Below are positions 2,785 to 62,082 of a stretch of DNA of 64,000 nt, piece after piece. The first letter of the stretch is position 1. Every line of letters begins with the position of its first letter. The notes under the pieces were generated by a model. That model had not been told where the DNA came from. It made no database searches and was given only the letters and a program-made list of their open reading frames with translations. The translations under genes were made by a program, and so were the position numbers. Origin of the DNA: Motacilla alba alba (Eukaryota; Chordata; Aves; Passeriformes; Motacillidae); contig NC_052019.1 of the NCBI RefSeq assembly GCF_015832195.1, positions 620,001-684,000 on the forward strand, given 5' to 3'.

Positions 2785-3160
2785 GTTATCCCAACTCAGC
2801 TGTTTTATTGAAGTACAAAACATAACAAGTTAATTCTCTACATTGAGACAAGAATTTAAAAAATAATTAAAAATCCTCATTAAAACCCATTGAAAATATA
2901 TATATAAAACTGCTATTCCAATCAGGGAGTTATAAATATATTATGAACCAAGTTTTTCCAGACTCTGTTTCCTCTGCAAGTGCCCAACACCACTATAAAA
3001 CCCCAGTATTTATTTAAAACCCTGACACTCCCCCCCGTCCCCGATTCTTACGTGGGGCAGATCAGTGAGCACAGAAGTGACCCAAGAGCACCATCGGGGC
3101 TGCAGAAGTGTTTACTGCCTGCTCCTGTGCAGCTGCTGCGTGTGCTCAGCCCGGCTGGGG
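2785..3160 (-). other. ALMS1: ALMS1 3' untranslated region
   Basis: This is the sequence between the ALMS1 stop codon (3161-3163) and the first good poly(A) signal (2804-2809, minus strand). It is AT-richer than the coding exons, and a run of TATATATATA lies near 2900. The exact cleavage site is not visible; about 15-25 nt past the signal is assumed. Confidence 0.65.
2804..2809 (-). terminator. ALMS1: Poly(A) signal AATAAA for ALMS1
   Basis: TTTATT on the plus strand is AATAAA on the minus strand, about 350 nt past the ALMS1 stop codon. It is the first canonical hexamer after the stop, so it is the likely polyadenylation signal. Confidence 0.65.
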
Positions 3161-3205
3161 TCAGCTCCAGGACACCTTCTTCCCCAGGACACGGCTGGTG
3201 ATCTT
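3161..3205 (-). CDS. ALMS1: ALMS1 exon 18 (terminal coding exon)
   Basis: The last 14 codons and the stop (residues 2895-2908). The peptide is KITSRVLGKKVSWS and ends in TGA at 3161-3163. Human ALMS1 ends RVTNQLLGRKVPWD, the same length and pattern, so this is the end of the ALMS motif and matches human exon 23. The acceptor is CTTTCCCCTCAG directly before AAG ATC ACC (phase 0). The intron side is unusual: this acceptor and the first 9 nt of the exon are repeated several times in the array at 3206-3870. Confidence 0.93.
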   Translation of the reverse strand, partial: KITSRVLGKKVSWS

Positions 3206-3870
3206 CTGAGGGGAAAGCAGAGGGACACGGGTGAGCTCAGGGCTTTGGAGATGCTGAGCACAGGTTCTCTGCACAGAAGGGCTTTGGAACCCCAGAGGTG
3301 ATCTTCTGAGGGGAAAGCAGAGGGACACAGGTGAGCTCAGGGCTCTGGAAACTGGAAATGCTGAGCACAGGTTCTCTGCACAGATGGCTGTGGAACCCCA
3401 GAGGTGATCTTCTGAGGGAAAAGCAGAGGGACACGGGTGAGTTCAGGGCTCTGGAGATGCTGAGCACAGGTTCTCTGCACAGAAGGGCTTTGGAACCCCA
3501 GAGGTGATCTGAGGGAAAAGCAGAGGGACACGGGGCAGTTCAGGGCTCTGGAAACTGGAGATGCTGAGCACAGGTTCTCTGCACAGAAGGGCTCTGGAAA
3601 TGCTGAGCACAGGTTCTCTGCACAGAAGGGCTCTGGAAATGCTGAGCACAGGTTCTCTGCACAGAAGGGCTCTGGAACCCCAGAGGTGATCTTCTGAGGG
3701 GAAAGCAGAGGGGCACAGGTGAGCTCAGGGCTCTGGAGATGCTGAGCACAGGTTCTCTGCACAGAAGGGCTCTGGAGATGCTGAGCACAGGTTCTCTGCA
3801 CAGAAGGGCTTTGGAACCCCAGAGGTGATCTGAGGGAAAAGCAGAGGGGCACGGGGCAGTTGAGTGCTTT
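3206..3870 (-). repeat. Minisatellite carrying copies of the exon 18 acceptor
   Basis: Units of about 100 bp with internal sub-duplications. Each unit holds, in minus-strand sense, a pyrimidine tract CTCTGCTTTCCC(C)TCAG. In three copies AAGATCACC, the start of exon 18, follows (acceptor positions near 3305, 3411 and 3693). In two more, AAG is deleted and CAG is followed by ATCACC. The rest of the unit reads GAACCTGTGCTCAGCAT in minus sense. The array starts at the splice junction itself. Confidence 0.88.
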
Positions 3871-4604
3871 GGAAATGAGAAACGCTGAGCACAGCATTGG
3901 TATGGAATCCCGGAGGGGGACAGGCCATGACCTGCTGCTCCCTCCAGCGGCTCTCTCCAACTCACCGGCATCACATGCTCGCTCCCCCTTGTGGAAAAGC
4001 CTCGGAAATGGAACGGGTCTGGGTCCATAAACTCAGAAAATGCATTTCTGCTTCACTGGGGCTGAAAGCTGTGATTGCTGCTGCCATCAGATCAGAGTCT
4101 GCTCCCGCTACAGAGTGCAAAATTCCAGGGCACTCCCCGTCCCCTGATCTAACTGGGATGATTTTATGCTCTATTTGAAATTAAAAGTACAAAAGCAAAG
4201 GGCTGCTGGGACAGAACAGCAGCCCAGATCCACGTGCACCCCGTGATAAAAATAACTTTGCTATCTTCATAAAGAGAAGTATTGAACAATTTCAGAGATC
4301 AAGAATGTCTGTGCACTCCAGCCCAGGGATTTTTACGGCTCCAGTTCTAGGTGGGCTCAGGATCATCCCCACTCAGTGCCAAGAAAACTTCTAATTTTTC
4401 TCTTTTCCCCTCAGTGAGCTGCCCCAAAGTGTCACAGCAATGCCTTGATGCCAGCCCCGACAGCCCCTCACCTGCCAGGGCCCTGCAGGGATATCTGCAC
4501 TCTGCTTTACAAAAGGGAAGAGGATTTTGTTCATATATATTCACTATTCTGGGGTCTTATTTTGAGTCAAATAAGCTCAGCTGCCTCCCATGCCTCAGCC
4601 TGGA
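3871..4604. other. Intron, nothing recognised
   Basis: Unique-looking part of the last ALMS1 intron. No exon-like conserved frame or transposon signature was seen. Confidence 0.5.
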
Positions 4605-4720
4605 CACTGAGATGGTCCCTCATCCCTGGCAGTGTCCCAGGCCAGGCTGGACCCTGGGGCTGGAGCACCTGGGGCAGTGGGAGGTGTCCCACTGGGATGG
4701 ATTCATTCATTCACTGCCAG
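4605..4720 (+). mobile_element. CR1 LINE fragment
   Basis: CATCCCTGGCAGTGTCCCAG, GCCAGGCTGGACCCTGGGGC and GGGCAGTGGGAGGTGTCCC match the CR1 3' region in its sense direction. It is a short, worn copy. Confidence 0.6.
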
Positions 4721-4959
4721 GCCACAGGAGAGCTCCTCTTCTGGCTCTGACAATGGTTTGTTGTCTTGTTTTGTTTTTTTGTACTATTGCATTCGTATTT
4801 TTAATTCCCATAGTAAAGAACTGTTATTGCCAGTCCCTTACCTTTGCCTGAGAGCCCCTGAATCTCAAAATTACAGCAATTCAGAGGGAGGGGGGTTGCA
4901 TTTTCCCTTTCAGGGGAGGCTCCTGCCTCCCTCAGCAGATATTTCTCTTTTCAAACAGA

Positions 4960-5375
4960 GACCCCCCTCAGCAGACCCTGGCTGTTCAGAGAGCCCCTCA
5001 GCAGACCCTGGCTGTTCAGAGCCCCTCAGCAGAGCCCTGGCTGTTCAGAGAGCCCCTCAGCAGAGCCCTGGCTGTTCAGAGCCCCTCAGCAGAGCCCTGG
5101 CTGTTCAGAGAGCCCCTCAGCACATCCCTGGCTGTTCAGAGAGCCCCTCAGCAGACCCTGGCTGTTCAGAGCCCCTCAGCAGACCCTGGCTGTTCAGAGC
5201 CCCTCAGCAGACCCTGGCTGTTCAGAGAGCCCCTCAGCAGAGCCCTGGCTGTCAGAGACCCCCCCCCCTCAGCAGAGCCCTGGCTGTCAGAGAGCCCCTC
5301 AGCAGATATTTCTCTTTTCAGAGAGCCCCTCAGCAGAGCCCTGGCTGTCAGAGACCCCCCCCTCAGCAGGTCCCT
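4960..5375. repeat. Minisatellite, about 30 bp unit
   Basis: About 13 copies of CCCCTCAGCAGA(GC)CCTGGCTGTTCAGAGAG with small length changes. Some right-hand units have GTCAGAGACCCCCC in place of GTTCAGAG. Two separated units carry ATATTTCTCTTTTCA, at about 4940 and 5305. Confidence 0.88.
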
Positions 5376-5689
5376 GTGTCTGGGACTCCCTGAGGGAACC
5401 CGGGGCTCCAGAGAGGAGGGGGTGTCACACACAGGTAAAACCTTATTAACAAACCCTTCTAAAATCAGGCCCCGTTACTGTGAGATGAGAATTACAATAG
5501 TGACAATCAGCTAGCGAAACAACCTGGTTTTGTGAGAAGGCAGCTCACACCTGTGGGGAGGAAAGCTCCACCCCTGAGAAACACTGGCTCCCCAGGAGAC
5601 AGAGTGTGAACACAGGAGGAACAGAAAGGTGTGATGGACACGGGCAGCAGGCATTGCCAGTGCCTTCTGGTAACCATATCAGTACCATA

Positions 5690-6065
5690 AAACTTATATG
5701 TATATAACATATATAATATAGTATATGATTACATAAACAGAAATATATATCAGAAATATATATCAGAAATATATTTTATATATTATATTTTTACTATATA
5801 TTTATATTTATGTAAATTTATGTCAAAATATATATACCATATATAATGTATAATGTATAATGTATAATGTATAATATATAATATATTTATATTATATATT
5901 ATAAAAATATATAATGTAATATATAATATTAATATATTATATATAATGTATATAGAACATAAATTTTATTATATACAAAGATTATATCTTATATTATTTT
6001 AATTATATATGAAGATATATATAGAATATATATTTAATTTTTATATATATATATATATAATGAAT
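5690..6065. repeat. AT-rich low-complexity tract
   Basis: About 370 bp of almost pure A/T with TATATA, TATAATG and (TA)n runs, set in otherwise GC-rich sequence. It is likely unstable DNA with no coding content. Confidence 0.85.
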
Positions 6066-6124
6066 TATGAGCTATGTGAACAGAGATTTGGCTATCCTGC
6101 ATGAAGAGCAGGTGTCTTTGTCCA

Positions 6125-6384
6125 TCTCCATTGTGATCAGGGGCACTCCCAGGCTTGCAGGGCTGAGCCCAGAGGGACCAGGGGCACTCCCAGTTTTATA
6201 GGGCTGAGCCCAGAGGGATCAGGGGCACTCCCAGGCTTGCAGAGCTGAGCCCAGAGGGTGCTGCACTCCCAGTTTTATAGGGCTGAGCCCAGAGGGTGCT
6301 GCACTCACAGTTTTATAGGGCTGAGCCCAGAGGGTGCTGCACTCACAGTTTTATAGGGCTGAGCCCAGAGGGTGCTGCACTCAC
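6125..6384 (-). repeat. Minisatellite carrying copies of the exon 17 donor
   Basis: The units nearest the exon are 38 bp and read GGGCTGAGCCCAGAGGGTGC then TGCACTCACAGTTTTATA on the plus strand. In minus sense each gives AAAACT then GTGAGTGCAGC, the same bases as the real exon 17 end and donor at 6385/6384. Two further intact GTGAGTG donors lie at about 6305 and 6343. More distant copies have CCCAG in place of CACAG and have lost the GT. Confidence 0.85.
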
Positions 6385-6484
6385 AGTTTTGTAGAGCTGA
6401 GCCCTCAGGCGGTAGGAGCTGTACTCCAGCCTCCTCTGCTCCTCCTCCCTCTTCCTCCTCACCTCGGGGAGCTGCTCGTACATC
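6385..6484 (-). CDS. ALMS1: ALMS1 exon 17, ALMS motif
   Basis: Residues 2861-2894, counterpart of human exon 22. The minus-strand frame reads MYEQLPEVRRKREEEQ and then SSYRLRAQLYKT. Human has IYEQLPEVQKKREEEK and SYRLRAQLYKK, so this is one of the best conserved parts of the protein and lies within the C-terminal ALMS motif, which in human takes part in centrosome targeting. The acceptor is CTCTCCCATTAG before G ATG, and the first base completes an AGG codon begun in exon 16. The donor is ACT then GTGAGT. The length is 100 nt (1 + 33 codons). Confidence 0.95.
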
Positions 6485-7120
6485 CTAATGGGAGAGGAAA
6501 GGCAAAACCAGCCCTGTGAAACTGCCTGACACTGAATCCCACAGCTGCTCTACACAAGGAGAGCTATTACAAAAGAAAAGCCCTGTAAAACATGGTTTAG
6601 GCCCTGCTACTTTAGCTGAACCAGTAGCTAGCTTGTAAGTCCTTATGAGAAAAAAACTGTGAGAATCAAGTTTGAATAACAACTTATTCTTGTAAAGAAA
6701 AAAGTAATAACAAAAGATCTGTCCTATGAGAATCTACAAAGAAAAAACACAAGCACCTGAAGAAAAGAAGCATTAACACATACACACACAAGCACCTTCT
6801 AACCAACAGACTGAGTGTTAAGGTTACTAACCAATTCGTCAAACACAATGTCTTTAAAAACTGCATAGATATGAGCTTTATTCATGTACATTTATTTATA
6901 TGCATTATATTATTTATTATATTTATATTTATATATTTGCTTTATTTATTTAACGTGAGCTTTATTCTTCCTGCATGGAGAAACTGAATCCCATCTGCTT
7001 TACTGCAACACACCCCCTCTGCTCTATCCCACATCCCTAAGGGCTGCTGGCCAAGCACATCCCTGACAAACGTGGTTGCAGTTTGCTGCTGTCCCACTGT
7101 GGAACCCCCAGCAGCACTGA
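6485..7120. other. Intron, nothing recognised
   Basis: ALMS1 intron with AT-rich runs at about 6880-6955 (TTATTTATA-type). No exon or transposon was identified. Confidence 0.5.
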
Positions 7121-7124
7121 GCCT

Positions 7125-7705
7125 GGGAATTCCTGCCCCTGGAATGGCTCTGCTGCCCCTGGAATGCCTCTCCTGCCCCTGCAACGCATCTCCTGCCCCT
7201 GGAATGCCCCTCCTGCCCCTGGAATGCCTCTCCTGCCCCTGCAACGCATCTCCTGCCCCTGGAATGCCCCTCCTGCCCCTGGAATGCCCCTCCTGCCCCT
7301 GGAACACTTCTCCTGCCCCTGGAACACTTCTCCTGCCCCTGGAATGGCTCTTCCACCCCTGGAATGGCTCTCCTGCCCCTGGAACTCCTCTCCTGCCCCT
7401 CGAATGTCCCTCCTGCCCCTGGAACCCCCCTCCTGCCCTGGAATACCTCTCCTGCCCCTGGAACGCCTTTCCTGTCCCTGGAATGGCTCTCCTGACCCTG
7501 CAATGCCTCTGCTACCTTGGAATGGCTCTGCTACTCCTGGAATGGCTCTGCTACCTTGGAATGGCTCTGCTACCCTTGGAATGCCTCTGCTACCTTGGAA
7601 TGGCTCTGCTACCTTGGAATGGCTCTGCTACCCTTGGAATGGCTCTGCTACTCCTGGAATGGCTCTGCTACTCCTGCAATGGCTCTGCTACTCCTGGAAC
7701 ACCTC
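7125..7705. repeat. Minisatellite, 18-20 bp unit
   Basis: About 29 copies of CTGCCCCTGGAATGCCTCTC. There are two sub-families: a left one with CCTGCCCCTGGAA and a right one from about 7500 with GCTACCTTGGAATGGCTCT. The change of family part-way suggests separate rounds of expansion. Confidence 0.9.
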
Positions 7706-7944
7706 TCCCAGCCCAGCACCTCCCCAGAGCAGCACCTGTAGCTCTGTCCTGCCGTGGTGACCCAGCTGGAGCTCAGTGTCCCCAGTGTCCCCAGGACACC
7801 CCCATGGCCCTGCAGCCAAGGCAGGAGCTCAGCACAGCAATCAGCTCGCTGAAGCTTTTCGGGCATTTCCAAAATCCCAGTGCTTCCAGCAGTGCTGCCC
7901 TGCTCTGTCTTCCCCCGTGCTGATGCATCCCCAAGTTTTCCTTC

Positions 7945-8040
7945 AGTCCTGGAATGGTTTGGGCTGGAAGGACCTGCAAGCCCATCCAGTGCCACCCCTG
8001 CCAGGGGCAGGGACACCTTCCCCTGGCACCCTAAGAGTAC
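7945..8040 (-). mobile_element. CR1 LINE 3' end fragment
   Basis: TGGAATGGTTTGGGCTGGAA, then CCATCCAGTGCCACCCCTGC and GGCAGGGACACCTTCCCC, is the reverse complement of the CR1 3' terminus. Only about 95 bp are kept. Confidence 0.75.
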
Positions 8041-8898
8041 TCTGAAGTGCTAAAAATCATTAAAATGTATCATGAAAATCGTTGAAGTCATTAAAAATCG
8101 CCAAGGGTTTGTTTTATACACTGTGCATTGCAGCAGGAGTTTGGTGGAATCCCAGAGAAACCGAGGCTGGCAGAAACCTCTGGAGGCCACCGAGCTCCTG
8201 CTCCACGCAGGGTTAATCCCAAGGCTGCACCAGGCTGCTCAGGCCTCATCCCACCAGCCTGGGATCATTTCCAAGGCTCTGCCACCTCTGCTGGTCCTGG
8301 CCCAGCCCTTCCCATGCCGTTCACAGCAAAGCTCAGCTGCAGGGAGCTCCCAGTTCTTCCTGTCCCTCCCCAGCCCCCCGTGCAGCACGGCCGCCCCGAG
8401 GGCCAGTGCATGGCAGTGTGCTGGGTGCTGCAGAGATGAACTCCTGCAGGCAGAAAGGACACAAACCCTACCCTCAGGTGCTTCTTCCAAGGGTGAGAGC
8501 CTCTGCATTCCCCTGGGGTGATTATTTCTGTGGAAAGCCTCTTGCTGTGGGGGAATGCTGCCTGGCTGCTGCCCCAGTTACCCACTTTGGTGATTTGTGA
8601 GCTTCCTCAGATGCCCCAGTGTCCCCCAGCCCAGCCCCTCTCACGTGGGACCCAGTTTGCTGAGGATGGCTGACACTGCAGCAGAATCCTCAGCTTTAGC
8701 TACAGAAATGATTTTCCAAAGTGATCTTGTTTCTTGGAACTTCTAAGTAGGACATTTCTCCCTCTGATAAGGCACCTGCATTTTTCACTGCAAAAGCTGA
8801 ATTATTTGCACACCCAGTTCCTTTACTGCAGACAGGATTCAAAGCTTTTCCCTACCCAGCACACCGATCCACCCGAAATAAAATTCCCTGAACTTTAC
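8041..8898. other. Intron, nothing recognised
   Basis: GC-moderate ALMS1 intron sequence with overlapping short frames and no convincing exon. Confidence 0.45.
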
Positions 8899-8962
8899 CT
8901 TTTAGATCTTTGAAGCATTTCATGCTTGGGAATTGCTCTTCTTTTTTCTCTCATCAGGAAAC
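8899..8962 (-). CDS. ALMS1: ALMS1 exon 16, ALMS motif
   Basis: A 64-nt exon (residues 2840-2861), counterpart of human exon 21. Minus-strand translation gives FLMREKRRAIPKHEMLQRSK. Human has FLAIQKNKPISKKEMIQRSK, which aligns without gaps. The acceptor is TTTTCCATTCAG before GT TTC, and the first two bases complete a GGT codon begun in exon 15. The donor is TCTAAAAG then GTAAAG, which leaves AG to be completed by exon 17. The exon is too short to stand out as an open frame. It was found by the conserved EMLQRSK block and the phases of its neighbours. Confidence 0.93.
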
Positions 8963-9189
8963 CTGAATGGAAAATTTTGAGATAAAGGAACGATGAACGA
9001 GCTTGTTACAGCAAAAATGCGAGTCCTTCGTAAGTTTTACAGAAGTTCTTACAAAAAACTCTGTAAGATCTTACAGACAACAGGGTTAAATAACTGCAAT
9101 GGCTTTAGGAGAAATAAATAAATAAATGCATCCTGAAGCATAATGTGGAGTTCATGACACCAAGGGATTCAAGGCAGAGCATGAAGTAC

Positions 9190-9478
9190 CTCGGCTGGAC
9201 ACCAGGTGATTTGCAGTCCTGCAGTCCTTCCTCCTCCCTGCAGGCTGCAACAGCTGCTGGGGTGGCAGCAGCTGCTCCCTCTGCGGTGGCAGCAGCCTGT
9301 CCCCGTGGGGTGGCAGCAGCCTGTCCCCGTGGGGTGGCAGCAGCCTGTCCCCGTGGGGTGGCAGCAGCCTGTCCCTCTGGGACGCGTGCAGCCTCCTCTC
9401 GTCGCGGAGCAGCCGCAGGTGCCGCAGGCGCTGCCCCGAGCGCGAGATGAAATCGGGGCGGTGCAGGGCCAGGGCCTC
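9190..9478 (-). CDS. ALMS1: ALMS1 exon 15, start of the ALMS motif, with an in-frame repeat
   Basis: Residues 2744-2840, counterpart of human exon 20. It opens with EALALHRPDFISRSGQRLRH; human has ESLQFHRPDFISRSGERIKR. The acceptor is TTTGTGTCCCCGCAG before GAG (phase 0). The donor is CCGAG then GTACTT, phase 1, which fits exon 16. After the conserved QRDRLL the exon carries about four copies of an 8-residue unit (DRLLPPHG) encoded by a 24-bp tandem repeat, then REQLLPPQQLLQPAG. This makes the exon 96 codons, against about 60 in human, so the ALMS motif is interrupted by a GC-rich insertion. GTACTT is a weak donor, and the exact 3' end should be checked with RNA. Confidence 0.9.
9289..9375. 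repeat. 24-bp in-frame tandem repeat within exon 15
   Basis: Plus-strand unit GTGGCAGCAGCCTGTCCCCG followed by TGGG, about 3.5-4 near-identical copies. In the coding sense it reads DRLLPPHG. The period is a multiple of three, so copy-number change keeps the frame. Confidence 0.9.
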
Positions 9479-9947
9479 CTGCGGGGACACAAACAGACCC
9501 TGCCAGGCCAAGCTGGGGCTGGCAGCTGCAGGGGAGACCCAGAACACCCACCACGAACCCCAGAGCATGGAAAAAATCCCCTCATGATATTGGGTGCAAT
9601 ATAAAACTCCTGTCCTTAAAGCTGGCTGGGTGCTCGGAGGCCAGCAGCCTCTGAGCCTCTGGCTTACCAACGTGGAAATAAACTGGCCAGAAAGCAAAAA
9701 ACCCCCAAAATAATAAAAAAGAATAATAAAAACTCATTTTGATCTCGTACTATGTACACCTCAGTAGTGTTTCTGCGTGGAAACAAGCGTGGTGGGACGT
9801 TCTGTCACCTGCATCCCCCTGGCTCCTGAAGCCAAGGGTTTAATCCCAAGTCAAATACTGAGGAAATAACTTAAATATTCTGGGGAAAGCCTTCCAGGAC
9901 GTGCCCCTGCGGAGGCCCCAGCAGTGCCTGGGGCAGGGTGGCCTCAC
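9479..9947. other. Short intron, nothing recognised
   Basis: ALMS1 intron between exons 14 and 15. There are A-rich runs near 9700-9730 and no other signal. Confidence 0.5.
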
Positions 9948-10186
9948 CTGCAGCGTGAGCTTGCCCAGGGGCTGCCCCAGCCCCCTGCCAGCCCCCGTGG
10001 GTGTCACTGCTCCCTGGCCCAGGCCGGGCTGCTCCTCCCAGTTCTTCTCCCGCAGGGGCTCTCTCCAAGGCTTCGTGCTGCTCCAGGGCTCAAACCAGGC
10101 TGGCCCAGGGCCGGGACTGGCACTGCACTGGTTCTCTTTCCTCGACTCACATTCCAAGTCCTCTGCTGGGACGAGCCACGGCGTCC
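9948..10186 (-). CDS. ALMS1: ALMS1 exon 14
   Basis: Residues 2664-2743, counterpart of human exon 19. Translation gives [19 protein letters not shown], then [20 protein letters not shown] and a tail ending GKLTLQ. Human has [38 protein letters not shown] and a tail ending RATLQ, so both blocks and the exon end match. The acceptor CTCTTTCCACAG before GG completes a glycine codon started in exon 13. The donor is CTGCAG then GTGAGG in phase 0. The block just precedes the ALMS motif. Its acceptor tract is copied in the array at 10187-10760. Confidence 0.94.
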
Positions 10187-10760
10187 CTGTGGAAAGAGCA
10201 CAGAAGGGAAAGAAGGCTTGAGGCCATTCCTGTGCCTGGTGTCCATCCCGATCCATGGTCCTGCATTCCACAGAAGGGAAAGAAGGCTTGAGGCCATTCC
10301 TGTGCCTGGTGTCCATCCCGACCCATGGTCCTGCATTCCATAGAAGGGAAAGAAGGCTTGAGGCCATTCCTGTGCCTGGTGTCCATCCCGATCCATGGTC
10401 CTGCATTCCACAGAAGGGAAAGAAGGTTTGAGGCCATTCCTGTGCCTGGTGTCCATCCCGATCCATGGTCCTGCATTCCACAGAAGGGAAAGAAGGCTTG
10501 AGGCCATTCCTGTGCCTGGTGTCCATCCCGACCCATGGTCCTGCATTCCATAGAAGGGAAAGAAGGTTTGAGGCCATTCCTGTGCCTGGTGTCCATCCCG
10601 ATCCATGGTCCTGCATTCCACAGAAGGGAAAGAAGGCTTGAGGCCATTCCTGTGCCTGGTGTCCATCCCGACCCATGGTCCTGCATTCCATAGAAGGGAA
10701 AGAAGGTTTGAGGCCATTCCTGTGCCTGGTGTCCATCCCGATCCATGGTCCTGCATTCCT
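10187..10760 (-). repeat. Minisatellite, 70 bp x 8, next to the exon 14 acceptor
   Basis: CAGAAGGGAAAGAAGG recurs every 70 bp from about 10201 to 10691, and the copies are nearly identical. In minus sense each unit contains CTTCTTTCCCTTCTGT, the same pyrimidine tract that precedes the real exon 14 acceptor, and then GGAATGCAG. So each unit carries a pyrimidine tract followed by an AG. Confidence 0.93.
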
Positions 10761-10929
10761 GCAGGAATCACAGAGCCCGAGGGGACAACAAAGAGCTGGG
10801 AGGGGACACAGCCAGGAGAGGTGATGCCAGCTGACCCAAGGGCATCCCACATCATGGTCAGGAGACAGAGCTGAGGGAAGAGGAGGGGGAGCACTTGGAA
10901 TGATGGTGCTTTGACCTCCCAAGTCACAT

Positions 10930-11310
10930 CGGGCACCATGAGCTCTCCTGGGGATGGGAAGGTGGGCAGGGGCTCTCCAGGGTCCCTGCAGTGCCCACAG
11001 GGGGTTCCAAGGAGGCTGCAGAGGGACCTGGGACAAGGGGAAACGCTCTGAAGCTGAAGGAGGGCGGGCTTACACCAGATATGGGGAAGGAATTGTTGTT
11101 CCCTGGGAGGTGTGAGGCCCTGGCACAGGGGCTGGGCTGGAATTCCCAGAGCAGCTGTGGCTGCCCCTGGATCCCTGGCAGTGCCCCAGGCCAGGCTGGA
11201 CACTGGGGCTGGAGCACCTGGGGCAGTGGGAGGTGTCCCTGCCATGGCAGGGTGGCACAGGGTGGGATTAAGGTCCCTTCCCACTCAACGCACTCCAGGA
11301 TTCTCCAAGT
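10930..11310 (+). mobile_element. CR1 LINE 3' fragment
   Basis: Sense-direction CR1 3' region: CAGAGGGACCTGGGACAAGG, GGCTGCCCCTGGATCCCTGG, CAGTGGGAGGTGTCCCTGCC and GGGATTAAGGTCCCTTCCC, ending with CTCCAGGATTC, a worn form of the CR1 3' tail. Confidence 0.78.
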
Positions 11311-13078
11311 GGAGAATGAATTCCTTGTCTGGCTGTGCTCAGGGGGCTTTTCCTTTCCCTGCTAGCCTGTCTCTATCCCAACCCAGTGGTTTCCCCACTC
11401 TCCCATCCCATCCTGTCCCACATCCCTCAGCAGGGAAGGACCAGGGGTGACAGCACAGCAGTGCCCAGGTTTGCAGCTGAACCCAGCAGTGCCAGCACTG
11501 CAGCAACCCCTCACTGCAGCTGAATTCCAGGGGCATTTCTGTAGGAAACACCGTGGGCAGGTTCAGGAGAATTCCTTCCCCAGCAAGCCTTTATCACATA
11601 CCGCTTTTGAAAAGCCCAGAACTGTTCATTTTCCAGGTTTCTCTCCACGGAAAGAACAGTTATTTACCAGCAATCACACATTTTTAAGGAGCCTTTCTGC
11701 TGGCCTAAGCCCTGTGACTCTTCATCCATGTTTTGGAAGATCAAATGCTTTCCATCTCCCAAATGCTCAACGTGTCTCCAGGAATTCAGTTACTCACAGT
11801 TTACACACACAATGATGTGAATACATCAGCTGGGGTTCTGAGCAGATATTCTGAATTTCCTAAATTAAACTCTTATGAGAGAGAGTGATCAGTCCCCACA
11901 ACAACAACAGTGATGAGTAAGGGAAATATTTTTAAACATTTAATTGTGACGTTGTGAAGAGTGGCAGGAATTTAAGCGACAAAAAAAAAAAAAAAAAAAG
12001 AAAATGTCAGGAGACTCCACCAGCAGCCTAAAATTGCAACTCTCAAAAACAGTTGAGTTCTTCCCAGTTTTCACCCAAGTACTCTGGAAAAATCTTCTGG
12101 GAAGCCTCAGGGCATGAGACATTGAGGACAAATTGGTGACCAGCACTGAGAGTTTAACAGAACCTTTTGTACCTCAGAAGTTCTTGTTAAGCACCTACAC
12201 GATTGCCACCTCTCCACCTTGTTTATTCCTCCCCAGTGACTGCATTTCCTGCTGCAACAGCCACGGCTGACCCTGCCAGCAGGAGCCAGCGCTGCAGTGC
12301 CCTGGCAGGGTTTTGGCTGAGCTCTCGGGGACCCCAGCAGGAGGAGGCTGCGGCAGGGCCAGCTCTGTGAGCCCGTGAGCGAGCAGGGCAGGGCAGGGCA
12401 GAGCAATGCCCTGCAGAGATGCCCCGCAGGCTCGGGGCTTTCCTCCCAGCTCAGGGTGAGGAAGGAGGCTCCCCCAGGTGCTCTGCAGCTCTGTGTCCAC
12501 TGCTCCAGTTCTGTCCTGCCCACTGGCCCGCTGCCTTTCCCTACCCCATTACCTGACATGCTCATGTTCTAGAGAGTTCTCCTTCACCGCTGCCCCATGG
12601 GCTAACCCTGCCCATCCACCCTGGCATCCCCTCTTGTGTGGAGCCCTCTGAATCCTCCCTGCAGGGACATCCCCAGGGGCTGCCTTGGAAGAACACACCA
12701 CGGAGACTCCCCCCTGGGCTGATGGAGAGGACTCAGCCCGTGGTGCTGTGCAGCACTGCTGCCAGTCCACACCAGACTGCCTCCCCACGGGCCACCGACA
12801 CTGCCCACCCCAGCTGTGCACGCCTCATCCTCCCCACAGCTGCCTCTGCCCGCCCCTGTGCCCCCAGCTCACTGACCCCATCATGAACCCGTGCAGAGCC
12901 ACGGTTCTGTCTTTGTCCCTGATCCTTCGGCATGCTCTGGAATAACCCCTCGCTGGAATACATCACGCAGAGACCCTTCCTGTGCTTCCTGTGCTGAGCT
13001 GTCCGTGGTGTGTGTGTGTGTGTGCATGGACTGGAAATGGCTCTTCTGGGGGCCTTACTCCGAGTGGCTTCTGAAGGA
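11311..13078. other. Intron, nothing recognised
   Basis: Long stretch of ALMS1 intron. It holds an A-run of about 19 at 11981-12000, a (GGGCA)n patch at 12385-12400 and a short (TG)n at 13006-13024. No exon-like conserved frame was seen. Confidence 0.45.
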
Positions 13079-53239: not shown

Positions 53240-53478
53240 CATCACCACCATCACCATCACCATCATCATCACCATCAACCACCACCATCATCATCATCAC
53301 CATCACCATCATCACCACCATCATCATCACCATCATCACCACCATCATCATCACCATCAACCACCACCATCATCACCATCACCACCATCATCACCACCAT
53401 CACCATCATCATCACCATCACCATCATCATCACCATCATCACCACCATCATCATCACCACCACCATCACCACCACTGT
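53240..53478. repeat. (CAC/CAT)n trinucleotide array next to exon 2
   Basis: About 80 uninterrupted CAC or CAT triplets, with three CAA, starting about 22 bp from the exon 2 acceptor. Several 12-21 bp sub-units recur. On the plus strand it would read as poly-histidine, but nothing supports translation. Confidence 0.95.
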
Positions 53479-53782
53479 GAGACTGAGACAAGCCAGCACT
53501 GATTCTGAAGGGGTTCCTACACAAACCCTCAGCCTGGATGTCACCATGAGATCTTCTGAAAAATCCCTCAGAAAAACAATGCCAACAGTAACTGTCTGCT
53601 GCTGTGACACGCAGCCAGTGCAGCTCTGATTGGAACGGGCTTTTCTTAATAACCACAGCCAAGGGTGTCAGAGCCCTGAGCAGGCACGAGTTTTTGTAAT
53701 TCATTCTTCCCCATTCCTTCCTAGCTTTCTAATGTGTGCTTACTCTATTTCTTTTAGTATAGTTTTAGTATAGCATTCATAA

Positions 53783-53862
53783 TATAATATAATATAATAT
53801 AATATAATATAATATAATATAATATAATATAATATAATATAATATAATATAATATAATATAC
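53783..53862. repeat. Microsatellite (AATAT)n
   Basis: Sixteen uninterrupted copies of a 5-bp AATAT unit. Confidence 0.95.
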
Positions 53863-54069
53863 ACCACAGCTCCCATGGACATTCCAGGGACATCCCACAG
53901 CTCCCTTGGACACCCCAGTGCTCCTGCACTCCTGGGTTCTGCTGCTGCAGCTCCTCCCTCCAGGCAGGGCAGGGAAGTGCTGGCAGCGGGCTGAAAGGGA
54001 TCATGTGCTGGTTAAAAACACAGATTACTGCTCTGTACTTCAGTGTGTGCTCAGCTGCCTCATGGACAA

Positions 54070-54285
54070 TGGAATACATGAAATAAATACATGAAATACA
54101 TAAAATAAATACATGAAATAAATACATGAAATACATGAAATAAATACATGAAATACATAAAATAAATACATGAAATAAATACATGAAATACATGAAATAA
54201 ATACATGAAATAAATAAAATAAATACATGAAATAAATACAAGAAATAAATACAATAAATACATGAAATAAATACATGAAGTGCTC
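54070..54285. repeat. AT-rich tandem repeat, 8/13 bp units
   Basis: CATGAAATAAATA (13 bp) mixed with CATGAAATA and CATAAAATAAATA forms, about 17 copies. Confidence 0.92.
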
Positions 54286-54954
54286 AGGCCATCCCCAGCA
54301 GGAGAGGCTGGGCTCCAGCTCACACCAGGCACTTACACCCCACGCAGATCCCAGAGTGCACTGGAGCAGGCAGGCTCCTTCCCCACTTCAGCCCCCCAAA
54401 CCCGAGCATCACCGTGTGCCCAGCAGCCAATCCCTTCTGGGGGCACACACTTCCCTTTCCCAAATCCATGTAAATGCCAGTTTTGGTGTGAACCCAAAAT
54501 TCAGCACCGTGATCAGCTCCTGGAGTTCATCCGTCTGCTTCACAACCAGGGGCTGCTGGGCCTCCCAGCACTACCTTTTAAATTTATCTTTAATGCTTTT
54601 TTTAATGTTTCTTTTTAAGGTTTATTTATAAGTAATGTTTATTTTTAACTTATTTTAATGTTTATTTATATTTAATATTTATTTTATTTTAAATTTATTT
54701 TAATGTTTATTTATGATTTCATTAAGACAAGATTTTATTTATATTAATGTTTCAAACTATATTTTAAAAGGCATCTTATGCAAATATCTTCAAACCAGCC
54801 CAGGCTGAGTTCTCTATTATAATGTAGCAACATCTGCCATACTTTGAGGGCAGGAGGTGGAATGGGATTCCTGCCTGGAAAAGCAGCTGGAACACCTTCT
54901 CCCCACCAGGAGTGGGAAATGGATTTTTTTCCCATTCAAGAGAGAGGGGGAAAT
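54286..54954. other. Intron with an AT-rich patch
   Basis: Unique-looking sequence, then a T-rich tract at about 54575-54775 with repeated AATGTTTATTTATA-type motifs. No exon was seen. Confidence 0.55.
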
Positions 54955-55171
54955 GTGGGAAATGGATTTGTAGGGAATTCTCCAAGCCTGCCAGGAGGCT
55001 CCCACAGTGTGCAAACCCTGAGACAAGCAATGCTGATTTAGAAACGCCAGGGAATGGACAGACCCTGCTGGGAGAGAAATGGAGCTGGAAACGAGGTTCA
55101 AAGGAGGCCTTGCAAATAGGACTGGGTACTCTGAGAAACAGAACTGAAAGGTGCACTGCCGTGGCACCCAC
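54955..55171 (-). repeat. Inverted repeat, copy B (217 bp)
   Basis: Reverse complement of 41886-42102 at roughly 98% identity. Its left neighbour contains a second partial AGTGGGAAATGGATTT, suggesting a small local duplication at the element edge. Its right end touches the 51-bp array that follows. Confidence 0.9.
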
Positions 55172-55179
55172 AAATTGTT

Positions 55180-55770
55180 TATGGGAGGCTCCAAAATCCC
55201 ATTTCTCTTTGCCCCCAGAACACACACTGCTTATGGGATGCTCCTAAATCCCATTTCTCTCTGCCCCAGGATGCACACTGTTCATGGGATGCTCCAAAAT
55301 CCCGTTTCTCTCTGCCCCAGGATGCACACTGTTTATGGGATGCTCCAAAATCCCATTTCTCTGAGCCCCCAGGATGCACACTGTTCATGGGATGCTCCAA
55401 AATCCCGTTTCTCTCTGCCCCAGGATGCACACTGTTTATGGGATGCTCCAAAATCCCATTTCTCTGAGCCCCCAGGATGCACACTGTTTATGGGATGCTC
55501 CAAAATCCCGTTTCTCTCTGCCCCAGGATGCACACTGTTCATGGGATGCTCCAAAATCCCATTTCTCTCTGTCCCAAGGATGCACACTGCTTATGGGATG
55601 CTCCAAAATCCCATTTCTCTCTGCCCCAGGATGCACACTGTTTATGGGATGCTCCAAAATCCCTTTTCTCTTTGCCCCAAGGATGCACACTGCTTATGGG
55701 ATGCTCCAAAATCCCGTTTCTCTGAGCCCCAGGATGCACACTGCTTAGGGGATGCTCCAAAATCCCCTTT
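55180..55770. repeat. Minisatellite, 51-52 bp unit, 11 copies
   Basis: ATGGGATGCTCCAAAATCCC, then (A/G)TTTCTCTCTGCCCC(A)AGG and ATGCACACTG(T/C)TT. Copies are 90-98% alike. The first unit partly overlaps the end of the inverted repeat element. Confidence 0.95.
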
Positions 55771-56895
55771 CACACTGTGCTGCACCAGCCCAGCTCCAAT
55801 CCCTGCTGCAGAGAGCAGCCCTGAGGAGACAATCCGGGTAGGAAACTGCCCCACGGTGGCACTGGCTGCAGCAGGGCACAGCACCAGGCAGCTGCAAGCA
55901 GGAGGAAGGATTTACCAAACGAGTGTCATCATCTCTCAGGGCTCCCACATAATTTAAATCAATGAAGGAAATTTAACAACGTTTTTCTTCCTGAAATTCA
56001 ATACATTACCCCTCTTTATGTATTTAGCAGCAGAAGCTAAGACAGAAATAAAGCTGAACAGCTACAGCCACCCCCACAGCACACAGTGCCATGAGTTGGA
56101 GAAGCAGCTCTGAACCCGTGCTGCAGTTCATGGACAGAAATATGAACGTTACTGGGTTTTGAACTACTTTCAACATCCAGGCTAGCTCTCCTTATGTTAT
56201 CCTGCCCCACAGGCCCCTGAGAACACCCCGCAACAGAACATGGGAGAAGTAAAAACCCAGGGAGAGAAGGGAAAGAGATCTCCCCAGACAACTGATGGCA
56301 GCCACCCGATCTGCCAGGACATCAGAAACACCCTGTGGTTTCTGCCAGCCCCTGAGAGCAGCCCCAGCCCAGCCCTGCCAGCCCCACAGGAGCCTCCAGG
56401 GCTCCAGGGACTGACCCAGCACTCCTGCTCCAGCCTCACAACCCCTTCTGGGCAGGGATCTTCCCCAATACCCACCCAAAGCTCCCTGGCACTGCCTGGG
56501 GCTGCTCCCCCTGCCCTGGTGACTGTCACATGGAGGGACACTCCAACAGGCTCTGCACTGGGGCACGGCTCATGCCCAAACTGAACGTGGCAGCAGTTTC
56601 ACCTGGGCAAGCTGCTGTGCTGGGCCTCGGGAAGCACAAAAGCAGCTCAGAACTCGCCCAGCTGCTGGTGGAGGTGGGAAGGAATGGTTTGGGTCTGGAG
56701 AGCACTGCTGGCACCCCAGTCTGGCTGAGGACGAGGGACAGCTTCAGTGGTTTGGGTAACAGGGCTAAGGACAGCACAGATCAGAGCTGAACGAACCCTG
56801 CAGCCTGGCCTCGGTGCAGTGAGAGCCCGGGGCCACTGGGAGTCAGCAGCCACTGCGGCAGGGCAGGGCCAGGGACAAACGGGAGCTCACCTGGA
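55771..56895. other. Intron, nothing recognised
   Basis: Unique-looking part of ALMS1 intron 1, where a counterpart of human exon 2 might have been expected. No VWQQIVYQG-like block was found. Confidence 0.45.
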
Positions 56896-56899
56896 ACAC

Positions 56900-57530
56900 C
56901 AGGGATCCAGTGGGAACCAGGGACTGATCCACCTGGAAACACCAGGGATCTGCCTGGGAACCAGGGACTGATCCCCCTGGAACACCAGGGATCCACCTGG
57001 GAACCAGGGACTGATCCCCCTGGAACACCAGGGACTGATCCCCCTGGAACACCAGGGATCCGCCTGGGAACCAGGGACTGATCCACCTGGAACACCAGGG
57101 ACTGATCCACCTGGAAACACCAGGGACTGATCCACCTGGGAACCAGGGACTGATCCACCTGGAACCAGGGACTGATCCACCTGGAACCAGGGACTGATCC
57201 ACCTGGAACACCGGGGATCTGCCTGGGAACCAGGGACTGATCCACCTGGAAACACCAGGGATCCAGCTGGGAACCAGGGACTGATCCACCTGGAACCAGG
57301 GACTGATCCACCTGGAACACCGGGGATCTGCCTGGGAACCAGGAACTGATCCATCTGGAACACCGGGGATCTGCCTGGGAACCAGGGACTGATCCACCTG
57401 GAAACACCAGGGATCTGCCTGGGAACCAGGAACTGATCCACCTGGAAACACCAGGGACCTGCCTGGGAACCAGGGATCCAGCTGAGAACCAGGGATCTGC
57501 CTGGGAACCAGGGATCCAGCTGGAACACCA
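56900..57530. repeat. Minisatellite, 16-36 bp units
   Basis: CAGGGACTGATCCACCTGGA, plus ACACCAGGGATCTGCCTGGG, in variable order, about 27 units. Confidence 0.92.
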
Positions 57531-57744
57531 GGGAAGCAGCTGCTCTGCTGCTGCAGCCTGCAGGTCCCACCCCTGAGCATCTCCAGGACCCTTCCTCTGC
57601 TTTCTCCCAGCCCTGTTGTGGCAAGGAAGCACCACTGCCTCCTCCTCCTCCTCCTCCCAGCCCAGCCTCCTGCCCTCTGTGCCCAACCCTGCCTGCCCCA
57701 GGGCTCCCCCAGGCTCAGGCCACCCTGCTGGCCTGTCCCTTGTC

Positions 57745-58085
57745 CTGGCAGCCCCAAACAGGGAGGATCCAGCCGAGGCCAAGGGGGGAATGTTCCCTTC
57801 CAGAGAGCCCCAAACAGGAGAGAGGATCCAGCCAAGGCCAAGGGGGGAATGTTCCCTCTAGAGAGCCCCAAACAGGAGAGAGGATCCAGCCAAGGCCAAG
57901 GGGGGAATGTTCCCTCTAGAGAGCCCCAAACAGGGAGGATCCAGCCGAGGCCAAGGGGGGAATGTTCCCTCTAGAGAGCCCCAAACAGGGAGGAGCCAGC
58001 CGAGGCCAAGGGGGGAATGTTTCCCTCTAGAGAGCCCCAAACAGGAGAGAGGATCCAGCCGAGGCCAAGGGGGGAATGTTCCCTC
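57745..58085. repeat. Minisatellite, 52-59 bp unit, 6 copies
   Basis: CAAGGGGGGAATGTTCCCTC, TAGAGAGCCCCAAACAGG(AGAGA)GG and ATCCAGCCGAGGC. The unit varies by presence of AGAGA. Confidence 0.94.
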
Positions 58086-58590
58086 CAGCTGCCAGGGCTG
58101 CTCTCATTAACACAGCCTGGAGCAGAGGGGGCACTGCCACCTCCCCTGAGCTCGGGGCCCTGGGCAGAGCTGAAGTGCCAGGATTTCACCCCTCAGTGAG
58201 CAAGGCTCTGCATTTCCCATGGCTGAAGCCCAGGCCTGCTCTGGGGCCGTTCCTCCAGCTGGCCAAGCCCTGTGAATGGCAGCCCTGCAGCCTGGCACTG
58301 TCCCCAGCTGCCACCCACCCCCCAGCACATCCCCTGCTCACAGGGTGGCACAGCACAGCACCAGCCATGGACTGGGCCAGAGCGACAGGGCCAGGGGGGT
58401 TTGGAGCAGCTGGCCAGGCTGCCCTGCCTGGAAAAGACCCCAGCACCTCCTGTCCTGCAGCGACACAAACATGTCCCACTCACCACCACCTTCCAAAGAG
58501 CACTGAGGGGCCTTTTGAGACACCAGCCACCCCGGCAGCCCCAGACACACCTGCTCAGCCCTGTGCACTGGGGTCTGTCCCTGTCCCTGG
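58086..58590. other. Intron, nothing recognised
   Basis: GC-rich part of intron 1 without a convincing exon or transposon. Confidence 0.45.
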
Positions 58591-58594
58591 AGTC

Positions 58595-58945
58595 TGCCCC
58601 TTCCCAGATCTGTCCCTGGGGTCAGTTCCTGTCCAGCTCTGTCCAGTTTATCCCAGCTCTGTCCCTGTCCCTGGGGCCTGTCCAGTTTATCCCAGCTCTG
58701 TCCTTGGGGTCTGTCCAGTTTATCCTAGCTCTGTCCTGGGGCCTGTCCAGTTTATCCCAGCTCTGTCCTTGGGGTCTGTCCCTGTCCAGCTCTGTCCAAT
58801 TTATCCCAGCTCAGTCCCTGGGGTCTGTCCCTGTTCAGCTCTGTCCAGTTTATCCCAGCTCAGTCCCTGGGGTCTGTCCCTGTCCAGCTCTGTCCAGTTT
58901 ATCCCAGCTCAGTCCCTGGGGCCTTCCAGTTTATCCCAGCTCCCT
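58595..58945. repeat. Minisatellite, 33-54 bp unit, about 8 copies
   Basis: CTGTCCAGTTTATCCCAGCT, then CTGTCCCTGGGGTCTGTCC, with and without an extra CCTGTCCAGCT block. Confidence 0.9.
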
Positions 58946-61195
58946 TTCCTTGCCCCAAGCTCCTCTGCAGGCACACAGGGCAGGGAGGAACAGTCCAAAG
59001 CTCTGTAGGGTCACCCCACTCCTGCCCACCTGAAGCTGCATTCCCCTTCCTGTTAACTCTGAACTGATTATTCGGGTTCCATGCAGCAGCTCAGTCGAAG
59101 GGGCCTCCAAAGATCAGCTGGCTCAAGCTCCCGTGGGAAGGGAGCCCAAACCCCAAAGAAAAGCACACAGCAGAGCTACCAGTGCTGCAGCACCCACGGC
59201 TGATAACCAAGCCCAGGAGCTGCCCTCCACCTTCCTGGCTCACTGCAAATCTCATTAGAGCCAGCCAGGGCAGCTCTGCCACCAGACCTGCATTGCTGTC
59301 TGAGCCCCCCGACTGCCTGCTGCCCAAATCCCACCCCCAACAGAACATTGACAGCATTTCTGAGTTACCTCACGGACTGGGGAGCTACCACTGCTTCACA
59401 CGCTCAGCTCTGGACCACTGGAAAAGCACTGGCTGTGCCCTGATTTTTCACTTATGCTTTATTCAAACCACACTTCCAAGAGCTGCCCTTTGCACCCCAC
59501 TGCCCCCAGGTTTTAGGAAAATGCTCGTTCCTGTATCTTTCCCACCACTGAAATAAAAGTACCTCTGTCAGCAGGTACCTTGGTTTGCTCCCCTACCCAT
59601 CTTTACAAAAGAAAAAGCAGAATCTCAAGGAGCTGTGGACATCCTGGCATGCAGCCATCGATTTGCAGCATTTAAGAATGAAAAGCAGAAACCTGATCCT
59701 TCTGGGCCTCATATGTCACACTCAAATTTAGCTAAATGTAGAATCAAAAACTTGGGCAGGGCTTAAACCATCCTCAGCATCAGAAATAAACTGAGAGGAA
59801 AGGGCCAAAGCTGACAAAGCTAGAAACGGTATACACAGTAGGAAGCCTCCTTCTGTGGGTCACAGAATTCCTCCCCGTTACACTCTGAAGCCCAGAACAC
59901 CTTTCAGTTACCATAAACTGGGACATTGCTCCCAGCCTCTCCTCAGTGAGCAAAACCTTGAGGGAAGTGTTGAGCAGAAGTTTTTAAAGCCAATTCGACC
60001 CCCAGTCCCCCGCAAATCCGCGCTGGCTTGAGCCACAAGGTGTGACAAGACACCCCAGAGGCCAGGACAGGTGAGCAGGGCACAGCAGCACAGGTGACCC
60101 CTGGCTGGTGCTGGGCTGGGCACTGCAGCCTGAGACTCCCAAGAGAGGAGGCTCTCTGCAGGGAGCTGAAATCAGCCAGAGTGAACAGAAGGGCACGGCA
60201 GAGGTGCCAGGGCAGCAGAGGCTGCTCCGGCCGCACCTGCAGCCCCTGGGAGCAGCAGCTGAGCTGGGCTCAGCTCCAGCTGGGCCTGCCAGGGCTCAGC
60301 TGGGGTTGTCAGAGCAGCCAGGGGCAACACAAACAGACAGGGGAGCAACGGGCACAGCAGCACCCAAAGTGCACCAGAGCAACTGGCCTGGGCTGAGCAC
60401 AGCCAGGCGACACGAGAAAAGGAGGCGCACTCGCTGTCCCACACCACAGCCCGGGGCCCAGGCGGGCACTGCCTGAACAGCGCTCCCGGGATGGCCCTTC
60501 TGCTCCGAGGCACAGCAGAACCTGCAGCAGCGCAGGACCCAGCCCTGGCCCTCCTGAGAACAGCCAGGGAAGCTCGTGCTGCTGCTGCAGAGGCTGATGG
60601 AAACGGCACCAAGCCTCCACCGAGTGCCACGGCCACCACGGTCAGCCCAGTCATTCCCACGGCTGTTCCCATGCTGCTCCAGCTTTTGTTATTTCTCCTG
60701 CTGAGACTGAGCCTGCACCAGCCCGTCCTTCCTCAGGGAATGTTTCTGGAAGTTGCCAAGGCAGCTACCTCAGGTTTCCACGTGGCTGCTGCTCCTCTCT
60801 CTGAGCCCCTTCCTGGCTCTGGAGCTGTCACACCTCGGGACTGTCCCTCTGAGCACAGGGGACGGTCACCACCAAGGGCCAGAACCACACAAGGGCCTCC
60901 CACCGCTCTCACAGGGTGCCAGCTCAGCAGGACACTGCTTCCTGCACGGCTCTGATGGGACACCACTTCCAGGGTCTCCTCCCAGCCTGCAGCAGGGATC
61001 TGAGCACAGCTGAGTGCACAGAGCTGTGGGAGCCCTGCATGGAGAAAAGGAGGCTCCAGGGAGACCTCCAGCACCTCCCTGTACCTAAAGGGGGCTTTTA
61101 AAAGAGAACAACTTTTTACACTGGCAGATACTGGAAGGACAAGGGGGAACTGTTTTACATAAAAGGCTGGGAGAATTAGGTGAGATATTTGGAAT
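58946..61195. other. Intron, nothing recognised
   Basis: Longest non-repetitive part of intron 1, about 2.2 kb. I looked for a short phase 0-0 exon here and found none I can support. Regulatory elements close to a first exon would be plausible but are not visible. Confidence 0.4.
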
Positions 61196-61199
61196 AAAG

Positions 61200-61390
61200 C
61201 CTTCCCCATCAGGTGGGGATGCCCTGGCACAGCTGTGGCTGCCCCTGCATCCCTGGCAGTGCCCCAGGCCAGGTCAGAGGGGACTTGGAGCAGCCTGGGA
61301 CAGTGGGAGGTGTCGCTGCCATGGCAGGGGTGGCACTGGCTGGGTTTGAAGGTCCCTTCCAGGCAAACCACGCCGTGACTGCATGGGCGC
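61200..61390 (+). mobile_element. CR1 LINE 3' end fragment
   Basis: GGCTGCCCCTGCATCCCTGG, CAGTGCCCCAGGCCAGGTCA, CAGTGGGAGGTGTCGCTGCC and AAGGTCCCTTCCAGGCAAAC, with a worn tail, in plus orientation. Confidence 0.78.
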
Positions 61391-62025
61391 AGCCCCCGTC
61401 CCTGCTGCCCTGCAGGGCAGTGCCTCAGCCAGCTGTCCCCGGGGCAGAGCCAGGCCCGGAGGGACCCGAGCAGCTCATCATTATCAGCCGATAATTGGCA
61501 CAATTACAGAGCACAGCACACTGCCTTCTCCGGGGAGGGCAGGGGCAGGCCGGAGCCAGCGTGACCCGGCTCCCGGGGAGAGAGCAGGGCACCGGGGGAC
61601 ACCGAGACACCGGGGGACACCGAGGGACACGGAGGGACCAGGCCGGGCTCGGGCGCTGCTGGGAGCCGGGAAGGCGCTCGGGCCAGCCGGGTCCCCCTTT
61701 CCGAGGGGGTGAGCCCTTAAGAGCCCTTTCACGGGGCAGGAGGTGACACCGGCCGGCTGTCCCAGCGCCAGCAGGATGGGGACCCAGCGTGAGCGACCCA
61801 GCGTGGCGCACGGACACACGGACACGGGGACACACGGGCACAGGGGCTGACACAGTAGGACATCCACAGTGGGACACGCACATACATATACACACGGGGA
61901 CACACACAGCAGGACACCCACAGTGGGACACGCACATACATATACACACATACACACGGGGACACACGCACACAACCGCTCCGGTCGGTGAGCGGCTGCT
62001 CCCGCCCGCCCGACCCCGTGCTCAC
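61391..62025. other. First part of intron 1, GC-rich, with CACACGGGGACA repeats
   Basis: GC-rich sequence just downstream of exon 1 in gene direction. Between about 61800 and 61975 a 50-58 bp block with GACACGCACATACATATACA and CACGGGGACACAC is duplicated; shorter CACCGGGGGACACCGAG repeats lie at 61590-61640. Confidence 0.6.
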
Positions 62026-62082
62026 CTGAGCCCGCTGTTCCTGCTCCTCCTGCTGCTCCTGCAGCGGCTGGCGGTGCTCCAT
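62026..62082 (-). CDS. ALMS1: ALMS1 exon 1 (start codon)
   Basis: Residues 1-19: MEHRQPLQEQQEEQEQRAQ. The start is chosen because the ATG sits in a near-ideal Kozak context (GCCGCCATGG), is the first in the CpG-rich region, and is followed by a clean donor (GCTCAG then GTGAGC, phase 0) that fits exon 2. Human exon 1 is longer and starts with a run of glutamates. Only the acidic/glutamine-rich character is shared, so the assignment rests on position, strand, promoter features and phase. A longer or alternative first exon is possible. Confidence 0.65.

Follow-up and report, generated by a model that had tools for sequence, protein, structure and literature searches.

Exon-edge minisatellites in the ALMS1 gene of a wagtail are consistent with avian sequence stuttering

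Why should the minisatellites that fill the introns of a gene also take in its splice sites? The question is raised by the gene for Alstrom syndrome protein 1 (ALMS1) in Motacilla alba alba. Its complete coding region lies on the minus strand of the window analysed here, a stretch of 64,000 nucleotides (NCBI RefSeq assembly GCF_015832195.1, contig NC_052019.1, forward-strand positions 620,001 to 684,000; positions below are those of the window). An earlier note made from the same DNA had listed arrays at many of the exon junctions. We find that these junction-borne arrays are real and that they fit the exon stuttering published for chicken, but a preference of seeding for junctions, which the note also implied, is only suggested. 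We argue that the arrays are probably a case of avian 'sequence stuttering', that is, local tandem duplication followed by expansion of the copy number.

The gene was modelled by hand as 18 exons running from 62082 down to 3161 (coding part 3161..62082, minus strand). The model holds 2,896 open codons and 17 introns, all of them GT-AG and consistent in phase, which gives 34 splice junctions, the same number as in the earlier note. The ALMS motif PF15309 was detected in its protein (Pfam, E=6.5e-34). A protein search returned 482 relatives, and the comparisons below rest on the best 120 of 482. The best relative, P0001 ('Alstrom syndrome protein 1 isoform X2 [Motacilla alba alba]'), was reported at 100% identity over residues 2200-2896, the region searched. 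Aligned over their full length, the model and P0001 disagree in two places: the N-terminus, and one lysine where exons 17 and 18 join, at which CAG/AAG offers two possible acceptors. Judged by its sequence, which contains the ALMS motif and resembles bird ALMS1 from end to end, the gene is an ALMS1 orthologue. The hand model, checked against P0001, replaced an ab initio chain of exons built with splice weights; that chain included spurious exons, chiefly toward the 5' end, and failed to recover exons 7, 9 and 16-18. The window has a GC content of ~55%, and the contig that carries the gene is 72,571,817 bp long (72.6 Mb), the size of a macrochromosome.

Tandem Repeats Finder (TRF) reports 32 intronic arrays with periods of 17-184 bp, which occupy 14,376 of the 50,231 intron bp (28.6%) and occur in 12 of the 17 introns. 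At six junctions the splice site or its tract is part of a repeat, in line with the earlier note's count of at least six: the acceptors of exons 5, 14 and 18 and the donors of exons 6, 9 and 17. At two of these donors the repeat unit joins the end of an exon to the splice site that follows. The 91-bp array at exon 6 (33846..34151, minus strand; 3.4 copies) has in its unit the last 27 bp of the exon (35426-34125) and the donor, and the 38-bp array at exon 17 (6143..6404, minus strand; 6.7 copies) has the last 20 bp of that exon (6484-6385) and the donor. Another 91-bp array (24776..25233, minus strand; 5 copies) takes in the final 5 bp of exon 9 (25354-25229) together with its donor. Upstream of exon 18 (3205-3161) an irregular array (3206..3852, minus strand) carries copies of the acceptor; as delimited by TRF it stops at 3352, 146 bp from the acceptor, although the acceptor copies are nonetheless plain. 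At exons 5 and 14 the AG lies outside the repeat, because the arrays stop 11-12 bp before the exon. The 32-bp array at exon 5 (38694..40364; 46.6 copies) ends 11 bp from the acceptor of that exon (38682-38511), whose pyrimidine tract resembles the array unit in part only, and the 70-bp array at exon 14 (10199..10759, minus strand; 8 copies) ends 12 bp from the acceptor of the exon (10186-9948). The 70-bp unit contains a pyrimidine tract and, in seven copies, a weak acceptor-like AG (score 2.1-2.3 versus 7.8). The further arrays that had been placed within about 100 bp of a junction were likewise recovered. A CAT/CACCAT microsatellite (53240-53475) begins 21 bp upstream of the acceptor of exon 2 (53053..53218, minus strand), one array (45606..45965) lies 58 bp upstream of the acceptor of exon 3 (45547-45445) and another (42326..42446) 64 bp downstream of the donor of exon 4 (44488-42511), and a 21-bp array of 26 copies (14069..14607) starts 5 bp after the donor of exon 13 (14813-14613), the donor itself being outside the repeat.

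The copied splice sites are in large part intact. When at least six exon bases are required, junction-spanning copies number three for the exon 6 donor, four for the exon 17 donor and three for the exon 18 acceptor, and exon 9, with 5 exon bp in its unit, scores none. All three extra donors of exon 6 are intact (scores 5.8-6.1); AG/GT is kept in two of the four extra copies at exon 9, and GTGAGT in two of the six at exon 17, the other four reading GGGAGT. Exon 18 has at least five extra acceptors (3306, 3412, 3509, 3694 and 3830), which score 7.6-8.0 versus 7.6 for the real one, and in three of them the acceptor is followed by the first nine bases of the exon, AAGATCACC. The extra sites are thus not systematically silenced, and given the strong acceptor copies at exon 18 we dropped the idea that acceptors are never copied since the first AG wins. 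Arrays remote from junctions contain splice-like motifs as well, with an acceptor score of at least 3 in 6 of 25 and a donor in 2 of 25, so that the presence of a motif alone proves nothing.

What would happen if the extra sites were used can be predicted from the sequence. Splicing from the extra donors of exon 6 would introduce a stop at residue 1290-1308; with the extra donors of exon 9 the stop would fall at residue 2121. At exon 17 the extra donors would alter the C-terminus, one ending the protein at residue 2895 and another running on without a stop in the modelled sequence, and the extra acceptors of exon 18 would likewise alter the C-terminus, with ends at 2903-3000. With the weak acceptor copies at exon 14, translation would stop at 2735-2876 or run on to 2,944 and 3,014 residues. 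Since use of the extra donors at exons 6 and 9 would truncate the protein, tolerance of the arrays needs the exon-proximal site to win, and at these two exons it presumably must do so if the full protein is made. The suggestion that arrays are tolerated because added splice sites do no harm therefore does not fit these two exons. By the same token ALMS1 may serve as a natural test of how the spliceosome chooses among serial, nearly identical sites.

What kind of process could have produced these arrays? Sequence or exon stuttering has been described in chicken, where most cases lie on dot microchromosomes (PMC12954441, Genome Biol Evol 2026). According to the parts of that paper drawn on here, 190 of 236 stuttered introns lie on dot chromosomes and 36 on macrochromosomes, donor or acceptor sites are copied, and more than 90% of the sources lie no further than 1 base from the exon border. 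Variation of intron length within the species is named there as the second main feature. Like the chicken introns, those of wagtail ALMS1 are packed with local, imperfect repeats of tens to hundreds of bases, and as in chicken an exon edge with its donor or acceptor, taken from a source at the exon border, is copied into the adjacent intron (PMC12954441, in the same parts); here this is the case at exons 6, 9, 17 and 18. The repeated exon edges encode residues common across birds, such as the end of exon 6 before AWVK, and YRL[RK]AQLYK and KIT at exons 17 and 18. Because other birds share these residues, the exon is the original from which the intron copies were made.

We propose that stuttering would seize whatever short stretch it begins in, and that most seeds would have lain inside introns. 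A few may have lain across an exon edge, and would have left copies of the edge and its splice site in the adjacent intron, as at exons 6, 9, 17 and 18; a duplication that spans the edge would still leave the real exon with its own site, and the protein would be kept if the site beside the real exon is used. Other seeds, again few, may have lain inside exons, where only units in multiples of three (39, 54 and 24 bp) would survive. Selection against damage to the coding sequence would then make the arrays stop mostly at exon edges and their coverage fall toward junctions, and the process would have run strongly in the ALMS1 of passerines. The anatomy, the identity of the exons, the copied splice sites, the logic of the reading frame and the concentration of coding repeats in passerine records are seen in the data; we infer that duplication was the seed, that the proximal site is the one used, that selection acts as the filter and that the intron arrays arose in passerines.

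Several observations weigh against this reading. The gene is not on a dot microchromosome, its contig being 72.6 Mb long. By self-similarity the window contains 17 interspersed repeat-like segments, 2,688 bp in all and many of one family (for example 2067-2387, 11078-11303 and 30294-30543), and arrays lie inside exons 8 and 15. In chicken, by contrast, repeats were not observed crossing into exons and dot euchromatin is free of interspersed repeats, as far as the consulted parts of PMC12954441 go; there, neither dot location nor the lack of crossing into exons is among the three main features. Unlike the chicken cases, then, that of the wagtail combines a large contig, interspersed-like repeats and in-frame coding arrays, in a songbird (PMC12954441, within the same limits). 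In addition, a BLAST screen with exons only, adapted from PMC12954441, finds exon 6 alone, with three matches of 50-54 bits; the other 15 proximal matches score below 30 bits, and two of 19 distal matches reach 30. The screen catches a single exon because the exon parts at the others are 5-20 bp long, and a shuffled-intron control for it gave no match of 20 bp or more. We regard stuttering as a process that is already known, of which ALMS1 is a strong case with two unusual traits, the involvement of coding sequence and the large chromosome. Its interest is that such a strong case of exon stuttering stands outside dot-sized chromosomes and that tandem expansion acts in coding exons too. Among the papers searched, from 2019 on, the term was found in none besides PMC12954441, and a search on ALMS1, tandem repeats and birds, judged by titles and the openings of abstracts, returned none on repeats in avian ALMS1.

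Do the arrays lie at junctions more often than expected? For the chance tests, TRF arrays were filtered on score and period into two sets, wide and stricter; the 32 intronic arrays have a score of at least 80 and a period of at least 7, and the exon 2 microsatellite, being under the period limit, is in neither set. Without exon 18, three junctions are contained in arrays, six lie within 12 bp of one and ten within 100 bp; counting exon 18, four are contained and seven lie within 12 bp. The expectation depends strongly on the null. If no array may enter an exon, the three counts average 0.03, 0.37 and 2.93, and none of 2,000 placements reaches the observed values. When up to 30 exon bases are allowed, the means are 0.87, 1.19 and 3.62 (P 0.054, 0.0015 and 0.0015), and a shuffle of the arrays within their own introns, with the same 30-base leeway, expects 1.03 junctions within 12 bp (P 0.0002). 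With arrays placed anywhere in the gene, the means rise to 7.98, 8.22 and 9.79 and the excess is gone. A fairer null is one in which each array is shrunk to one unit before placement, because the copies are inserted length (800 simulations per setting). In its most permissive form this seed-level null expects 1.6-1.9 junctions within 12 bp (P 0.004-0.01, or 0.001-0.004 with exon 18), although it scores nearness on either side of a junction and the observed count is of the intron side only; stricter settings give smaller P values. For contained junctions it expects 1.2-1.5 versus three (P 0.12-0.19; with exon 18, P ~0.04), and for the 100-bp count the wide array set gives P ~0.01, the stricter set P 0.11-0.145. 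Array coverage, for its part, is 13.5% at 1-20 bp from a junction, 17.6% at 21-50 bp, 24.2% at 51-100 bp and 27-31% beyond. It drops toward junctions, and the arrays thus lie mostly in intron interiors.

These figures bear on two opposite explanations. Arrays that cover more than a quarter of the gene must touch some junctions, so that, if exon edges are permeable, pure chance might account for the contacts, an explanation that we hold to be conceivable if somewhat doubtful. Random placement anywhere in the gene contains eight junctions on average, well above the three or, with exon 18, four observed, and exons do carry arrays (1,056 of 8,691 exon bp), but the fairer collapsed-seed null leaves a 3-4-fold excess. 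That excess would instead be expected if exon-intron junctions were true hotspots for the seeding of minisatellites, for example because short splice motifs (CAG-GT, pyrimidine tracts) favour slippage. The six or seven junctions within 12 bp under even the most permissive seed-level null argue for such hotspots, as do the low P values under the 30-exon-base null and the own-intron shuffle. So do the chicken data, in which more than 90% of stuttering sources touch an exon border, although that screen sees copies of exons only (PMC12954441, as above). Yet placement anywhere in the gene expects more junctions within 12 bp (8.2) than are seen, the excess of contained junctions is weak, the 100-bp count is not exceptional with the stricter array set under the permissive null, coverage is lowest near junctions, and the cut-offs were set after the data had been seen. 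Seeding hotspots therefore seem unlikely to us. The claim that arrays cluster at junctions beyond chance survives as the 3-4-fold excess of seeds within 12 bp, and fails to the extent that coverage is lowest near junctions and that the anywhere-in-gene null leaves none. With distance cut-offs picked post hoc and a single gene, the excess of seeds at exon edges is suggestive, clustering is unproven, and the hotspot claim is a lead only.

Two other explanations can be weighed against the makeup of the arrays. R-loops or G-quadruplexes (G4) formed by transcription at junctions might seed and expand arrays, and G4 is among the mechanisms on which PMC12954441, in its portions used here, speculates for chicken stuttering. 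On its coding strand the exon 13 array matches the G4 motif 92 times, overlaps included, and some far arrays also have many matches. In contrast, five of the seven arrays near junctions have no coding-strand G4 motif and several arrays are AT-rich. The GC skew of the coding strand is positive in three of the seven near arrays and in 13 of the 25 far ones, so there is no G-rich bias, and over the 32 intronic arrays neither the G4 nor the skew test showed an association with nearness to junctions. We therefore consider this cause, which the earlier note had raised in the form of R-loops at junctions, very unlikely. Misassembly as the source of the tandem copies appears most improbable. The window has no Ns, the copies carry substitutions of their own and the coding arrays are in frame. 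Misassembly is unlikely for the exon 15 array and the 39-bp array of exon 8, two of the three coding arrays, because other passerine records have them at the same places in these exons.

How far, then, has stuttering reached into the protein? Three coding arrays lie in frame on the minus strand: in exon 8 (28465-26188) one of 14 copies of 39 bp (27732..28274) and one of 5.6 copies of 54 bp (26935..27238), and in exon 15 (9478-9190) one of five copies of 24 bp (9257..9413). All three units are divisible by 3 and leave the frame open, whereas the units in introns are of any length. Among 24 records the 54-bp unit occurs in Motacilla only, and Melospiza and Zonotrichia have arrays of another unit in the same place; the exon 15 array is found in nine of 13 passerine records and is missing from those of crow, tit, ground-tit and white-eye. 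By a crude repeat count, tandem residues number 135-707 in these 13 passerine records, from 13 species, against a median of 0 in 104 records of other birds, which include several isoforms for some species and whose non-passerine status was read from names. This comparison covers 117 of the 120 records, omitting P0012, P0095 and P0120 (passerine, partial or otherwise named), and some of the passerine records compared are incomplete. Coding repeats are concentrated in passerine records but not exclusive to them, and this too speaks against the interpretation we favour, given that 30 of the 104 other-bird records have tandem residues, the highest count being 255, in a potoo. The coding repeats of passerines map to exons 4, 6, 8, 11, 13 and 15 and differ among species; Molothrus aeneus has a repeat that maps to exon 1, Pseudopodoces one that extends over the region of exons 2-4, and Parus one that runs across the boundary of exons 11 and 12. 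Part of exon 13 is repeated within the predicted protein P0003 (Onychostruthus), and the end of exon 11 within P0014 (Parus major), perhaps as stuttered exon edges read as coding.

In a protein tree of 24 chosen records, rooted on emu and ostrich and built from 2,070 of 4,844 columns, root-to-tip lengths are 0.85-1.32 for passerines, 0.25-0.52 for other neognaths and 0.10 for the outgroup, with 0.49 on the passerine stem, and annotation errors could lengthen branches. It is tempting to speculate that a macrochromosomal ALMS1 entered a regime like that of dot chromosomes in passerines, in which introns, junctions and coding exons stutter and protein branches are 2-3 times as long as those of other neognaths; we offer this tentatively, as an idea whose chances fall a little short of even. 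If it is true, stuttering would depend on a local property (recombination, GC-biased conversion or replication) rather than on dot chromosomes as such, and would be able to rewrite coding exons. ALMS1 also allows passerines to be set against many other birds.

The likeness to other known systems is partial, as judged from those parts of each paper that were consulted. Internal repeats in human segmental duplications (PMC2812944) also have units of ~30 bp at exon boundaries or in exons and can move or create splice sites; that case concerns recent primate paralogues with transcripts, whereas ALMS1 is present as one copy in the window and known from DNA alone. The GC-rich avian genes leptin, TNF, MRPL52, PCP2 and PET100 (PMC6792250) share with ALMS1 the repeat-rich non-coding parts and the G4 motifs, but chicken assemblies lack those genes, which are short and very GC-rich, and ALMS1 is long, assembled and in a window of only ~55% GC. 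As in intron gain by tandem duplication (PMC4974935), the duplication carries splice motifs; unlike there, existing introns of ALMS1 are lengthened rather than an intron created.

Some minor observations concern the two ends of the gene. The start codon was placed in exon 1 (62026..62082, minus strand), where the N-terminus resembles that of Haemorhous P0002 and differs from that of the wagtail record P0001. The public wagtail record begins with MEQCFLPQ, just upstream of exon 2 (53219-53475) and beside the CAT microsatellite, and the Molothrus aeneus record has near its N-terminus a run of D and G residues that looks like a CAT-type microsatellite read as protein. At ~53865-54007 on the minus strand there is a possible decayed relic of an exon 2 retained by Corvus and by non-passerines, as suggested by a weak similarity to Corvus (18 residues, E=0.02) and by a further stretch, in another frame, noted by eye. 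In five Passerida records exon 1 is joined directly to the next exon. At the other end, the tandem acceptor CAGAAG of exon 18 (3206) coincides with a one-lysine difference among several passerine records.

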